NCBI GenBank assembly: GCA_023249635.1
Contig: JAHFCH010000030.1
Span: forward strand, 1-41,409
Length of the DNA stretch: 41,409 nt
Direction: 5' to 3'
DNA from: Fibrobacterota bacterium
GTDB taxonomy: Bacteria; Fibrobacterota; Fibrobacteria; UBA11236
Shown here: positions 14,805 through 21,677 of the stretch, piece by piece
Layout of the letters: every line of letters begins with the position of its first letter
Numbering within the stretch: the stretch's first letter is position 1
Notes under the pieces: model-generated
What the model was told of the DNA's origin: nothing
Seen by the model: only the letters and a program-made list of their open reading frames with translations
Databases searched by the model: none
Program-made: the position numbers and the translations under genes

Positions 14805-16679
14805 ATGATAAAGGTCAATTCCCTTCCCGCTCTCCTGCCCCTGCTCACCTCCCTCCTTTGCCCAGTCGCCGGGGCCTTTACCGTGGACGGGATGCCTGGA
14901 ACCCTATTCTCCCCCTCCGCCCAGCCCTTGGGGCATCTGGGCCTGGCCGTCTCGGCTTCGGCCTACGGTCATGAGGATGCGTCCATGGTACGTCACAATC
15001 TATTCCTGTTGAGGGAATACGCCGGCGCGCTGGACAGCAATCAGGTACAGGATCTGCAAAGCGCCATGGTGCGCCTGAACGTGGCGTTGGGCCTGGGTAG
15101 CCATGTCGACGCCGGCCTGAGCGTACCCTACGCGGGGGATTTCATTTCCGATACCCGCGCCAAGGAATTGACCGGCACCGGCCTCGGCGATCCCACCTTT
15201 TTCCTCAAGGGCAGCGTGACCGCGGCAGGCAACCACCTTTTTGACGCCGCGCTCCTGACCTCCGTCACCCTTCCCGCCAAGAACAGTAAGGGTTTTCTCC
15301 CCAAGCAGGGCGGATACATGCCCGATGACACGGTGGCAGCGAATATGCCCCGCTTCTTCTCCAGCTATGGGGTAGGCTGGTCGGCGCGGGCCTTGCTGAC
15401 CTTGGACCTCGATCGCATCGAGGAGACCCCTCCCCCCTTCCGTGCCAGCGCGGGGGCTGGCTTCTCGCAATCAGGTTTACAAGGTTCCGAAACCCGCTTC
15501 CTGCTCGGGGGCGATCTGGAATGGATCGCCATGCCCAACCTGGTCTTCTCCGTTTCGGCCCAGTCGGAAACCCGGGTCTCCAAACTCGATGCCATCGGCA
15601 AGGAATATTCCTACGCCTCCGCCGGCTTCGCGGCCCACGGGGACGACGGGATCTTCTTCGCCGTCAATTTCCAGAAGAGCCTTCCCGCCGATCGCCCCTT
15701 CCGCACTTACAATATCCCCATCGCCGAAGGCGTCTACACCTTCGATGCGCGGTATCAGCCGCGTCTGGCCCTGGTAGCCAACCTGGGTTGGTCCGGAAGC
15801 CTGGTTGCCGAGGACGGCGACAAGGACGGCATGCCGGACAAGGAAGACCTATGCCCGCATGAACCCGAGGACTTCGATAATTTCCAGGACATGGACGGCT
15901 GCCCTGAAATCGACAATGACGGGGACAGCATCGCGGACGCGCTGGACAAATGCCCCATCGAGGCGGAAGACCGCGACGGATTCCAGGACGAGGATGGCTG
16001 CCCCGAGCTGGACAATGATAAAGATGGCCTGGCCGACGCCGTGGACAAATGCCCCAATGATGCCGAGGACATGGACGGTTTCGAGGACTACGACGGCTGC
16101 CCCGAACTGGACAATGATAAAGATGGCGTTACCGATGCGCAGGACAAATGCCCCAGCATCCCGGAAGACATGGACTCCTTCGAGGACACCGATGGCTGCC
16201 CGGAGCCGGACAATGATCAGGACAAGATTCCGGACATCAACGACAAATGCCCCAATGAACCGGAGAGCTACAACGGGTTCGAAGACGGGGACGGCTGCCC
16301 GGATATGAGCCGGAGCATGCTGAACTCGGTCCCCTTGGAGAAGCGGACCATCCTGACCGGCATCCACTTCCTCGGCAACTCGGCGGATATCCTGCCCGAA
16401 TCCCACGCTGCCCTGGACACCTTGGCCGAACGCATCCGCGCGGTGGCGGGACTCATGGTTGAGGTGCGCGGCTACTGGGACGGGGCCGGCAGCGAACTGG
16501 ACGGTTTCCGCTACTCCGAGGCCCGTGCCAACGCGGTACGGAAATACCTCGTAGGCAAAGGGGTGGAATCAAACCAAATCATGGCCCGGGGCATGGGCGC
16601 CCGCGATCCCATCGACAACAACAAGACCGCGATAGGCCGCCAGCGGAACCGGCGGATTGAATTACATCGGATGAATTGA
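14805..16679 (+). CDS. OmpA-family outer-membrane protein with thrombospondin type 3 repeats
   Basis: The 624-residue product has a signal peptide (MIKVNSLPALLPLLTSLLCPVAGA), a beta-barrel domain (about 25-335), five calcium-binding thrombospondin type 3 repeats (about 340-500), and a C-terminal OmpA-like peptidoglycan-binding domain with LVGKGVESNQIMARGMG and the conserved NRRIEL. It should tie the outer membrane to the cell wall, with a calcium-stiffened spacer in the periplasm. The start ATG has only a weak AGG upstream. In the 280-bp gap before it a perfect -35 hexamer TTGACA (14743-14748) stands out, but no good -10 follows at standard spacing. The gene is followed by repeat copy C, which separates it from the convergent barrel gene. 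Confidence 0.88.
   Translation: MIKVNSLPALLPLLTSLLCPVAGAFTVDGMPGTLFSPSAQPLGHLGLAVSASAYGHEDASMVRHNLFLLREYAGALDSNQVQDLQSAMVRLNVALGLGSHVDAGLSVPYAGDFISDTRAKELTGTGLGDPTFFLKGSVTAAGNHLFDAALLTSVTLPAKNSKGFLPKQGGYMPDDTVAANMPRFFSSYGVGWSARALLTLDLDRIEETPPPFRASAGAGFSQSGLQGSETRFLLGGDLEWIAMPNLVFSVSAQSETRVSKLDAIGKEYSYASAGFAAHGDDGIFFAVNFQKSLPADRPFRTYNIPIAEGVYTFDARYQPRLALVANLGWSGSLVAEDGDKDGMPDKEDLCPHEPEDFDNFQDMDGCPEIDNDGDSIADALDKCPIEAEDRDGFQDEDGCPELDNDKDGLADAVDKCPNDAEDMDGFEDYDGCPELDNDKDGVTDAQDKCPSIPEDMDSFEDTDGCPEPDNDQDKIPDINDKCPNEPESYNGFEDGDGCPDMSRSMLNSVPLEKRTILTGIHFLGNSADILPESHAALDTLAERIRAVAGLMVEVRGYWDGAGSELDGFRYSEARANAVRKYLVGKGVESNQIMARGMGARDPIDNNKTAIGRQRNRRIELHRMN
15820..16305 (+). repeat. Five tandem 99-bp units encoding thrombospondin type 3 repeats
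   Basis: Five 33-residue units each carry a DNDxDGxxDxxDKCP motif and end in DGCP. At DNA level the third and fourth units share identical stretches (GACAATGATAAAGATGGC at about 16013 and 16112, 99 bp apart), so the array can recombine and vary in length. Confidence 0.85.
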
Positions 16680-16708: not shown

Positions 16709-16761
16709 AGGTTTAAGGTCTAAGGTCTAAGGAATTGGATTCCACCTTAGACCTTAAACCT
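16709..16761. repeat. Heptamer inverted repeat, copy C, between convergent genes
   Basis: TTTAAGG at 16712 and TCTAAGG at 16719 and 16726 face CCTTAGA at 16745 and CCTTAAA at 16752. Positions 16709-16726 pair perfectly with 16744-16761 (18 bp) around a 17-nt loop. It lies in the 95-bp gap between the OmpA-type gene and the convergent barrel gene. A short direct repeat, GGAAGAGAAG twice at 16691-16710, precedes the left arm. Confidence 0.9.
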
Positions 16762-19475: not shown

Positions 19476-20339
19476 ATGTTTTTTCCCATCCTAAGAATTG
19501 TCCCGCTATTCCCGGTCCTATGCACTTGCTTTCTCATGTCCTGCAACCTCGCCGGAGGCCCCGGTAAGAGGGCGAACGGCTTACGTGTCTATTTCGTCGA
19601 CGTGGGGCAAGGCGACGCTTGCGTCTTGCGCACGCCGGAAAACCGGTGGTACATCTACGATATCGGAAATGAGGAGCGGACCCTGATTGCGTTCTTGCGT
19701 CATGTGAGGGCCGACACCTTGCAGGCGGCCGTAATTTCGCATCCGGATTTGGACCATTTTGGGGCATTCCCCGCCCTGCTGCATGATTTCCCAGTGAAAA
19801 AGGTCTACTTGCCCGAGGGGACCAGCACCAACCCGGCCTGGTTGGGGATGATCCGGGATTTAGACGCTTTGGCGGTCGATCGGGAAACCCTGTACGCAGG
19901 AGATATTTTGGCATGGGGCGGTCCGCTGACCGCACGCGTGCTCTGGCCACAACCGCATGCCTCCTTATCCGGCAACGACTTGTCCACGGTGTTGCGCATC
20001 GAGTACGCCGGGAAACGGATCCTGCTTACGGGAGACATAGAGGACGCGGCGGAATCCGCGATCCTGGGCGAAGGCTTCGCGCTCGCCGCCGACATCCTAA
20101 AAGTCGCGCACCATGGCAGCCGCACCTCCAGCAGCCTGGCCTTCATCGCCGCCGTACGCCCAAGTTGGTCCGTGATTTCCTGCGACAGCACCGTATATGG
20201 CCACCCGCACGTGGAAGCGCTGGCGGATTTGGCGGTCGTTATGGGAGGGGAGGAGAGGATTTTAAGGACTGACAGGGAGGGGACGATTGCGTTCGAGTTG
20301 GATGGGGACGGGGTTAGGAGGATTGATCCGTGGCAGTAA
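19476..20339 (+). CDS. Lipidated ComEC-like metallo-beta-lactamase-fold hydrolase
   Basis: The 287-residue product starts with a lipoprotein signal (FLMSC, Cys23) and continues with the hydrolase domain found at the C-terminus of the DNA-uptake channel ComEC. Motifs include VYFVDVGQGDACVL, SHPDLDHFGA (the HxxxDH metal site), NDLSTVLRIEYAGKRILLTGDIED and LKVAHHGSRTSS, followed by VISCDSTVYGHPH. Stand-alone proteins of this type are thought to be secreted nucleases or phosphodiesterases. The membrane channel and OB-fold of ComEC are absent and no competence gene is near. GGAAGG lies 6 nt before the start. The stop is only 6 bp before the left arm of the S23-carrying element. Confidence 0.85.
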   Translation: MFFPILRIVPLFPVLCTCFLMSCNLAGGPGKRANGLRVYFVDVGQGDACVLRTPENRWYIYDIGNEERTLIAFLRHVRADTLQAAVISHPDLDHFGAFPALLHDFPVKKVYLPEGTSTNPAWLGMIRDLDALAVDRETLYAGDILAWGGPLTARVLWPQPHASLSGNDLSTVLRIEYAGKRILLTGDIEDAAESAILGEGFALAADILKVAHHGSRTSSSLAFIAAVRPSWSVISCDSTVYGHPHVEALADLAVVMGGEERILRTDREGTIAFELDGDGVRRIDPWQ

Positions 20340-20345
20340 ACGTTG

Positions 20346-20772
20346 AGGTTTAAGCTCTAAGGTTTAAGGATTGGAAAATCTAGGAGAATTGTATGGCGAA
20401 AATTGAAAGTTACCGGGATTTGATCGTTTGGCAAAAGGCGATGGCCCTAGTCAAAAAAGTTTACCTGTTAACTCGCCAATACCCTCGAGAAGAAATTTAC
20501 GGACTAACTTCGCAGATGCGAAGAGCCGCAGCATCAGTTCCCGCGAATATAGCGGAGGGACGCACGCGGAATCATCGAAAGGAATTCGCAAATTTCCTGG
20601 GGTATGCCAGGGGATCGCTCGCGGAACTCCAAACATTTTTAATCCTATCCGTAAATCTGGAAATCGTAGAACGCGATAAAATCAAAGGACTGTTTTTGGA
20701 TTCAATGGAGTTGGAAAGAATCCTGTCCCGTCTTTCAAAAAATCTTCACTTTAAACCTTAGACCTTAAACCT
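20346..20772. mobile_element. Heptamer inverted-repeat element, copy D, carrying an S23-family gene
   Basis: The left arm is TTTAAGC, TCTAAGG and TTTAAGG at 20349, 20356 and 20363; the right arm is CTTTAAA, CCTTAGA and CCTTAAA at 20749, 20756 and 20763. Positions 20346-20369 and 20749-20772 are complementary at 22 of 24 positions. The arms match those of copies A-C, but the loop is 379 nt and holds the four-helix-bundle gene, which ends inside the right arm. By hand count 20401-20760 is about 44% GC, well below its neighbours (a sample line in the preceding gene is 65%). It fills the space between convergent genes ending at 20339 and 20784. I interpret it as the complete form of a mobile element. 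No transposase or flanking target duplication is visible. Confidence 0.75.
20393..20761 (+). CDS. Four-helix-bundle protein of the S23/IVP family
   Basis: The 122-residue protein has the full family pattern: YRDLIVWQKAMALV, then YGLTSQMRRAAASVPANIAEG, then FLGYARGSLAELQT, predicting four helices. Relatives are encoded in intervening sequences of 23S rRNA genes, and the diversity-generating retroelement accessory protein Avd is a more distant one; they are basic and pentameric in the cases studied and thought to bind nucleic acid. Here the gene is not in rRNA but inside heptamer inverted repeats. Its last codons and stop (FKP then TAG) come from the right arm. AGGAG lies 6 nt before the ATG. 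Base composition is clearly lower in GC than that of neighbouring genes, pointing to separate origin. A role in binding or mobilising its own hairpin is inference. Confidence 0.93.
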   Translation: MAKIESYRDLIVWQKAMALVKKVYLLTRQYPREEIYGLTSQMRRAAASVPANIAEGRTRNHRKEFANFLGYARGSLAELQTFLILSVNLEIVERDKIKGLFLDSMELERILSRLSKNLHFKP

Positions 20773-20783
20773 TTTCCCGGTCC

Positions 20784-21677
20784 TCAACCTTGCAACGCCT
20801 TCTGGATCCTCGTCATTGCCTGCGCCTCATTGGCTGCTTCCAGGCTGTGGGCATCTCTTCCCCTTACGCCCCACTGGACGTAATTCTGACCTTTGAACAA
20901 CGCCAGGGTTTTGGTTCCTAGGATTGCGGAGAGGTGGCTTACGCCACTATCGTTGCCGACGAACAGGGCGGCCTGTGAGAGCAGGCGAGCAAGTTCTACG
21001 GGGCTCTCCGGTTCCATCACGGGAAAGCGCGACGCGAAAATCGATTTCACATCCTGTTCCGCAGGGCCGATAAGGACGCGGGTATCCGGGTAACGGCGGC
21101 TTTTCAACTCGTTGGCGAGAAAGGCGTAGAACTCGGGATCGTAATTCTTGTCCTTGCTGCCCGAGCCCGGATGGATCAGGGCGTAGCCTTGGCGAACCGT
21201 CGCGATGGGGAAATAGAGATCCTCTTCCGGCACGGCAGGCAGGGCGAAATGCGGCAGGCATTGGAGATGGTAGTCCATCGCATGCTCCTGGGCATTATTC
21301 GGGAAGGGCGGGTGGATATGGAACGGTCCGGAGCATTTCTGGTGCAGCAGGGTGCGCAGCTTGGGCTCTTCTTCCATCCACAGCAAGGCCGAAGTCATCC
21401 CGTCCAGCGAGCGGGGCAGCAAGTCGCCCGAGTAGAATTGCAGGAAGTCCTGGGACTCGCAGTCGTAGGCTTCGTCGAGCAGACCCATCTCCGCGGCCAA
21501 CTTCAGGTAGGCCGGCTTTCCCAGGCCGATGAAACGGTGGTCCGAGAATTTCCAGCGAAGGCTGACCAGCGCCGGCCAGGTCATGATGAAATCGCCCAGC
21601 GCGCCGCGATGCGAGAACACGAAGACTTTCGGCTTCGCGTCGGCGGTGGTGGCACGGGGAACGGCGGAAGTGGACAT
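20784..21677 (-). CDS. Glycosyltransferase family 9 (heptosyltransferase-like)
   Basis: The 297-residue protein has the two Rossmann-like halves of GT-B family 9 enzymes, which add heptose or related sugars to lipopolysaccharide. The N-terminal half starts with FVFSHRGALGDFIMTWPAL, the nucleotide-sugar half includes ALIHPGSGSKDKNYDPEFYAFLANEL, and the donor-binding end has LFVGNDSGVSHLSAILGTKTLALF, all typical. The donor and acceptor sugars cannot be told from sequence. It starts 4 bp after the stop of the PRPP-synthetase-like gene, so they are probably cotranscribed with glgP upstream. Its stop lies just past the right arm of the S23 element. Confidence 0.85.
   Translation of the reverse strand: MSTSAVPRATTADAKPKVFVFSHRGALGDFIMTWPALVSLRWKFSDHRFIGLGKPAYLKLAAEMGLLDEAYDCESQDFLQFYSGDLLPRSLDGMTSALLWMEEEPKLRTLLHQKCSGPFHIHPPFPNNAQEHAMDYHLQCLPHFALPAVPEEDLYFPIATVRQGYALIHPGSGSKDKNYDPEFYAFLANELKSRRYPDTRVLIGPAEQDVKSIFASRFPVMEPESPVELARLLSQAALFVGNDSGVSHLSAILGTKTLALFKGQNYVQWGVRGRDAHSLEAANEAQAMTRIQKALQG

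Follow-up and report, generated by a model that had tools for sequence, protein, structure and literature searches.

Introduction

The S23/IVP proteins make up a very widespread orphan family, met so far chiefly in genes that interrupt ribosomal RNA, for which a structure was solved in 2006 without a function being given, and the intervening sequences (IVSs) of rRNA have had no agreed origin since 1990. The locus considered here, on a contig of a Fibrobacterota bacterium, holds a gene of this family between two inverted arrays of heptamers and outside any rRNA gene, which raises the question of what kind of element the gene and its arms constitute and what part the protein might play in it. 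The whole stretch of DNA that was analysed, 41,409 nucleotides long, is referred to below as the window.

An S23 gene inside a heptamer inverted repeat

A first-pass annotation, made from the sequence alone, had described a four-helix-bundle gene of the S23/IVP family with about 44% GC, enclosed in a heptamer inverted repeat between two protein genes and not in rRNA, and the present analysis bears out this description in all its parts (Table 1). The pairing arms (20346-20369 and 20749-20772) are complementary at 22 of 24 positions across a 379-nt loop, and the S23 gene, with a GC content of 44.4% against 60.4% for the window, is the sole gene between them. The flanking ComEC-like and GT9 genes are convergent. 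An Rfam search of the window matched zero families, so there is no rRNA remnant in it; such a remnant, which the first-pass annotation had named as a finding that would refute its reading, was also missing from Rfam matches at 20 related loci.

Table 1 Heptamer elements of the window and the genes on either side of the complete copy.
Feature	Positions	Strand	Basis
Gene-less AGGTTTA hairpin, flanked by an epimerase gene (-) and a gene for a SpoIIE-domain protein (-)	2156..2232		
Gene-less AGGTTTA hairpin, flanked by convergent genes	11374..11459		
Gene-less AGGTTTA hairpin, flanked by convergent genes	16709..16761		
Left neighbour: ComEC-like metallo-beta-lactamase-fold protein; in congeners too, outside the element	19476..20339	+	
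Complete S23 element, 427 bp; orthologous site without element in three congeners	20346..20772		
Left heptamer array, 4 units AGGTTTA AGCTCTA AGGTTTA AGGATTG	20346..20373	+	
Probable ribosome-binding site AGGAG, in the loop, not in the stem	20382..20386	+	sequence
S23/IVP four-helix-bundle protein gene, 122 aa (PF05635, TIGR02436)	20393..20761	+	
Right heptamer array, inverted; overlaps the S23 gene 3' end	20745..20772	-	
Right neighbour: glycosyltransferase family 9; in congeners too, outside the element	20784..21677	-	

The encoded protein passes the curated cut-offs of both PF05635 23S_rRNA_IVP (E=1.2e-36, 125.6 bits, cut-off 33.8) and NF008911/TIGR02436 (118.1 bits, cut-off 24), and a profile search of the protein gave no transposase match. 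The AF2 model (pLDDT 93.6) is the four-helix bundle that had been claimed; it matches the S23 protein XCC0516 (PDB 2GSC), which X. campestris encodes, with a TM of 0.89 and an rmsd of 0.9, and its fold also matches 2RLD (BT_0352) and, more distantly, the protein Avd of diversity-generating retroelements (DGRs), including the Avd chains of the DGR ribonucleoprotein. We know of no catalytic activity for S23 proteins. Omega values of about 0.05-0.11, from S23 gene pairs with measurable, unsaturated dS, show that the protein is under purifying selection. Elsewhere in the window, an OmpA/thrombospondin type 3 repeat gene has internal 99-bp tandem repeats (15882-16264).

Heptamer arms are a general feature of S23 loci

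The arms are not peculiar to this locus. All three S23 genes of the genome have inverted heptamer arms with one word each (AGGTTTA, CGTCGGG and AAAAGTG), and heptamer arms are also found at S23 genes across the class, on five cyanobacterial plasmids and at 80 named loci from many phyla. Looking for 7-bp repeats beside S23 genes in other genomes, as the first-pass annotation had proposed, revealed a 7-bp tandem array in a flank at 116 of 138 S23 loci from many phyla and in both flanks at 80 of the 138. Seven was the best period in 182 of the 206 S23 flank segments that scored, and eight in 18, whereas only 16 of 272 control segments scored at all, 7 of those 16 with period 7. Some S23 genes have no recognisable arms (e.g. 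L101, L102, L097, L186). The genomes compared are mostly metagenome-assembled. Array units appear to be 8 bp rather than 7 bp long at a minority of S23 loci (L142, L115, L125, L144, L154, L170, L171, L173).

The words themselves appear to follow the protein. The S23 heptamer usually contains AG, and within arrays the AG columns are 99% constant while the middle positions vary. AG is present in the words of 85 of 94 subfamily I loci against 4 of 13 subfamily II loci (p=7e-6), and AAT in 9 of 94 against 11 of 13 (p=4e-8); both subfamilies co-occur in some genomes, and word similarity rises with S23 protein similarity. Such covariation is the pattern that would be expected if the protein recognises the word, although it is no proof of binding.

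As to where the elements are found, one separates cas6 from cas4 in a type I-D CRISPR operon (L104 11405-11773, plasmid pANA02 of Anabaena sp. 90), and comparable S23 insertions separate nrdB from nrdA (L103) or lie within conjugation operons (L105, L107).

Gene-less hairpins carry the word of the resident S23 gene

Gene-less heptamer hairpins are paired with the word of the S23 gene resident in the same genome. The gene-less copies that had been reported in the window were recovered as three AGGTTTA hairpins, and a window search for the 14-mer AGGTTTAAGGTTTA, with up to 3 mismatches allowed, gave 23 matches against 0.93 expected, a count that no shuffle attained; these 23 matches are the three gene-less hairpins and the S23 element. 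Over 383 kb of the genome, a sample selected for matches to its S23 heptamers, 36 of 48 inverted repeats have period-7 arms. A 288-kb sample from the same genome was composed of contigs picked for their lack of listed matches, and its zero count is therefore biased and unusable.

Between genomes, this one has 365 AGGTTTA dimers (at most 1 mismatch) and each of five congeners has 0. For GGCGTCG, the counts are 99 and 174 dimers in the two genomes whose S23 gene is flanked by that word, and 5, 0, 0 and 0 in four others. Genome G004 contains both an S23 gene with AGGGTAA arms and an AGGGTAA gene-less hairpin. For 31 named loci, the share of distant arrays that differ from the local S23 heptamer by at most one base is 33% as a locus average, compared with 6% for permuted words and a maximum of 24% in 500 permutations. 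The orientation is fixed as well, since the heptamer reads in the 5' arm in 58 of 58 paired arrays and is reversed in 0. AAAAGTG, the word of the third S23 family of this genome, has only about four copies, and its pattern control was uninformative because the pattern is nearly identical when read backwards.

The pairing is looser in Fibrobacter, where numerous genomes have AGACGAG and AGTGGTT arrays but no S23 gene to match them, so that it is not absolute; the median number of AGACGAG arrays is 27 in genomes with a matching S23 gene versus 8 in the others (p=0.006). Such looseness would be expected if hairpins outlast the genes, and also if S23 genes merely travel with hairpins of another origin, a possibility considered below.

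The loops of the gene-less copies are variable and mostly unrelated, with a 10-mer in common in 14 of 378 pairs. One conserved loop for all gene-less copies was considered and rejected, as only a few loop subfamilies were seen. Many loops of the GGCGTCG hairpins (L063-L091) hold a terminator-like succession of A-tract, stem and T-tract, or have GC-rich satellite hairpins by the arms.

Elements are gained and lost as units

Complete and gene-less elements alike are gained or lost as units, and gene and arms are co-mobile. The site of the window element has neither an S23 gene nor heptamer arms in genomes G002, G003 and G005, and in G004 it holds an S23 gene 52% identical to that of the window, with AGGGTAA arms. 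The first-pass annotation had held that gene and arms form one element, to be abandoned if relatives carried the gene without arms at this locus. Relatives show either gene plus arms or neither, the empty sites show insertion as a unit and the gene-less copies share the cognate heptamer, and the one-element interpretation is supported. Gene-less hairpins, loops included, likewise account for presence/absence differences of whole units.

Conjugative plasmids of cyanobacteria with backbones about 97% identical differ in whether they carry the element. At the one clean junction, the occupied site reads AAAAA-GTAAT, element, GTAAT-TAACAAA and the empty site AAAAA-GTAAT-TAACAAA, with a 5-bp duplication of GTAAT that is not visible at other sites. 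A clean duplication at every site was rejected, since only this one was found and the other sites show altered spacers. One plasmid relative retains a decayed half element, and another plasmid site is occupied among relatives by an S23 element, a gene-less hairpin with a GGGAAC word, an element with a different heptamer, or nothing. When 50 kb from five related cyanobacterial plasmids were searched for further indels, the S23 element and unrelated small repeats were all that emerged.

An operon spacer in Fibrobacter, empty in 10 genomes and with arm remnants in 4, holds S23 genes in other genomes, where at least four words are represented in the arms and several of the genes are nested within remnants of earlier arms. 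Carriage by phages was rejected, as no match was found among 50,697 phage records.

Two further observations concern the plasmids. In Nostoc sp. C057 (L200 1150-1540), an unrelated ATTCAAA inverted-heptamer element without an S23 gene lies in the spacer that has an S23 element in relatives, and near-identical cyanobacterial plasmids differ by insertions within HIP1-type GCGATCGC sites (L202 35546-35571, L203 12080-12126).

Relation to known systems

The window element is a member of the S23/IVP family by protein sequence and fold; it is not an rRNA IVS by its location, not a REPIN/RAYT system by its protein, and not a DGR. The 23S IVS of Coxiella burnetii likewise has an S23-family ORF looped by a long inverted-repeat stem, with a similar total length, and three tandem heptamers GACAGAT, variable in number among strains, precede its S23p ORF (PMC4990558). 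In contrast, the window element lies outside 23S rRNA and S23 elements are intergenic in many phyla, they are accompanied by many dispersed gene-less hairpins of the same heptamer, and that heptamer is genome-specific and follows the S23 gene. Because elements outside rRNA are common in many phyla, it is the rRNA IVS that looks like the special case, and the tandem heptamers upstream of the Coxiella ORF (PMC4990558) also suggest that rRNA IVSs may be such cases. Mobility of IVSs was proposed earlier by Ralph and McClelland 1993, as cited in PMC4990558.

In organisation, the REPIN/RAYT systems (Bertels and Rainey 2011, PMC3116915) are similar in having a gene between short repeats, dispersed gene-less inverted pairs with variable spacers, and each repeat class tied to one gene per genome. 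The REPIN/RAYT criterion of dispersed hairpin-forming inverted pairs cognate to a single-copy gene with the same flanking repeat is met here. The proteins differ, RAYT being an HUH tyrosine transposase and the S23 element gene a PF05635 member without a transposase match, and so do the repeats, since S23 arms consist of tandem heptamers and REPs are 20 bp long. Classical MITEs and insertion sequences are unlike the system in that its S23 master copy lacks a transposase gene.

Avd of DGRs (4DWL, 8UB7/8UBB/8UBE) shares the fold with a TM of about 0.8, and there is weak sequence similarity to bAvd PF22296 (E=5e-4, 21.1 bits, below the cut-off of 40); the Avd profile NF033474 gives 25.3 bits and does not reach its cut-off of 80. 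Unlike in a DGR, no DGR reverse transcriptase is found beside the S23 gene, whose neighbours encode an MBL-fold protein and a GT9, and no variable/template repeat pair was seen with it. A single reverse transcriptase was found in this genome; it lies on another contig and, judged from its sequence, is of the group II intron type. Heptamer arms are, to our knowledge, not a described DGR feature. A DGR or retroelement was rejected on the lack of a DGR reverse transcriptase and on Avd scores far under the cut-off.

Finally, dispersed intergenic heptamer arrays resembling those described here are known from Xanthomonas (GGGAATC), Nostoc/Calothrix (STRR), Geobacter and marine Beggiatoaceae, and the parts of the sources available to us give neither a protein partner nor a mobility mechanism for them (PMC4692102, PMC2700814, PMC4679880). 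For Xanthomonas, PMC4692102 counts 70-75 convergent inverted heptamer pairs per genome. Among open-access papers, with preprints and subscription journals not covered, none was found that links non-rRNA S23 genes to cognate dispersed heptamer hairpins.

A probable two-component repeat system and its alternatives

The S23 elements probably represent a two-component repeat system akin to REPIN/RAYT, in which an Avd-type four-helix bundle takes the place of the transposase, with binding and action in trans being inferred. In such a system the complete element would consist of an inverted array of 7-bp units, the S23 gene and the array again, and the S23 protein, probably a pentameric ring as in its relatives, would recognise arrays of its own heptamer through a motif recurring every seven bases, anchored on AG in subfamily I and on AAT in subfamily II. 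Recognition would take place on the hairpin in its folded state, whether RNA or single-stranded DNA, where the S23 oligomer would recruit or guide copying and insertion, so that its own element would spread and, through action in trans, gene-less hairpins sharing that heptamer would spread too. Changes in the protein and in its word would go together, giving each genome a private word, and the cutting or polymerising activity may be supplied by the host. Heptamer binding and trans-mobilisation are inferred only, as are the nucleic-acid intermediate and any activity for cutting or polymerising. By analogy, an RNA stage might be favoured by the relation to Avd, a component of an RNA-bound complex, and by the fact that RNase III cleaves the IVS stem of Coxiella (PMC4990558); single-stranded DNA would be just as compatible with the hairpin shape and the fixed polarity.

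This reading rests on the heptamer arms of S23 loci, the heptamer of the gene-less hairpins, the distribution of AG and AAT by subfamily, the gain and loss of whole units, the fixed polarity of the arrays, the purifying selection on the protein and its fold. Counted against it are the absence of any known S23 catalytic activity or observed movement, the unrelated loops of the gene-less copies, which a simple cut-and-copy of whole hairpins does not explain, the non-absolute pairing in Fibrobacter, the single clean duplication, the armless S23 genes, the roughly four AAAAGTG copies and the predominance of metagenome-assembled genomes.

It is possible, although unlikely, that the S23 protein is instead a regulator acting on RNA, which would attach to the heptamer stems of transcripts and thereby govern termination, mRNA stability or cleavage by RNase III; the dispersed hairpins would then be its regulatory sites, spread by selection and ordinary recombination and not by S23 itself. 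In Coxiella, RNase III does cut the stem of the rRNA IVS, in which tandem heptamers are present (PMC4990558), three of the four window elements are flanked by convergent genes, some GGCGTCG hairpins contain terminator-like A-stem-T sequences, and Avd, the closest structural relative with a known function, belongs to an RNA-bound complex. A regulon would, however, be expected to retain conserved sites among congeners, whereas hundreds of copies in one species with none in its congeners, together with the gain and loss of units, form the pattern of a spreading element.

The chances appear slimmer still that the hairpins arise by another process, such as slippage together with some other transposase, and that S23 genes insert into or home to hairpins already in place. 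The Fibrobacter hot spot, where S23 genes with new heptamers lie within older arm remnants, would fit such a course of events, as would the cognate arrays in some genomes without an S23 gene and the varying number of array units, but arms of an element's own heptamer at virgin sites, as in the window and on the cyanobacterial plasmids, would not be expected, and neither would a heptamer motif that follows the S23 subfamily.

Very little remains of the idea that the element originated as a 23S IVS and left its rRNA gene as a copy, which is largely refuted: the protein family is the same, the stem is similar and the length of 427 bp is close to the 428 nt in Coxiella (PMC4990558), but there is no rRNA match around the window element or at 20 related loci, and elements of this kind are common outside rRNA in many phyla. 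An origin by chance, or by simple expansion of a microsatellite beside an unrelated small gene, is refuted, since, although an excess of heptamer microsatellites is known in bacteria (PMC4692102), the chance expectation is far exceeded and the arrays are paired, of one fixed polarity and matched to the S23 gene.

Extending the REPIN/RAYT-like reading to the whole family, S23/IVP proteins would be the dedicated factors of phylum-spanning heptamer-hairpin mobile elements, each reading its private word and mobilising its own and gene-less copies without a classical transposase, with rRNA IVSs and at least part of the unexplained heptamer repeats of Xanthomonas, cyanobacteria and other bacteria as members or products; this wider proposal could at present go either way. 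The S23 system could explain the puzzling heptamer repeats of many bacteria, and, if the protein mobilises the hairpins, no known transposase fold would be involved. S23 function and IVS origin now become directly testable, as the protein apparently co-varies with a 7-base DNA or RNA word of which there are hundreds of cognate hairpins.

Mini-hairpins at the element edges

The Fibrobacter operon spacer also contains perfect mini-hairpins with triloops, often GAA (L209, L212, L219, L220, L227, L233, L234), which follow the upstream stop codon, precede the heptamer arm and are not present at empty sites. In some of them the native end of the gene forms the 5' half of the stem, as though it had been folded back and copied. 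Among the 251 edge segments of all loci, 16 show a stem of at least 7 with a tri- or tetraloop, versus 4 of 999 controls.
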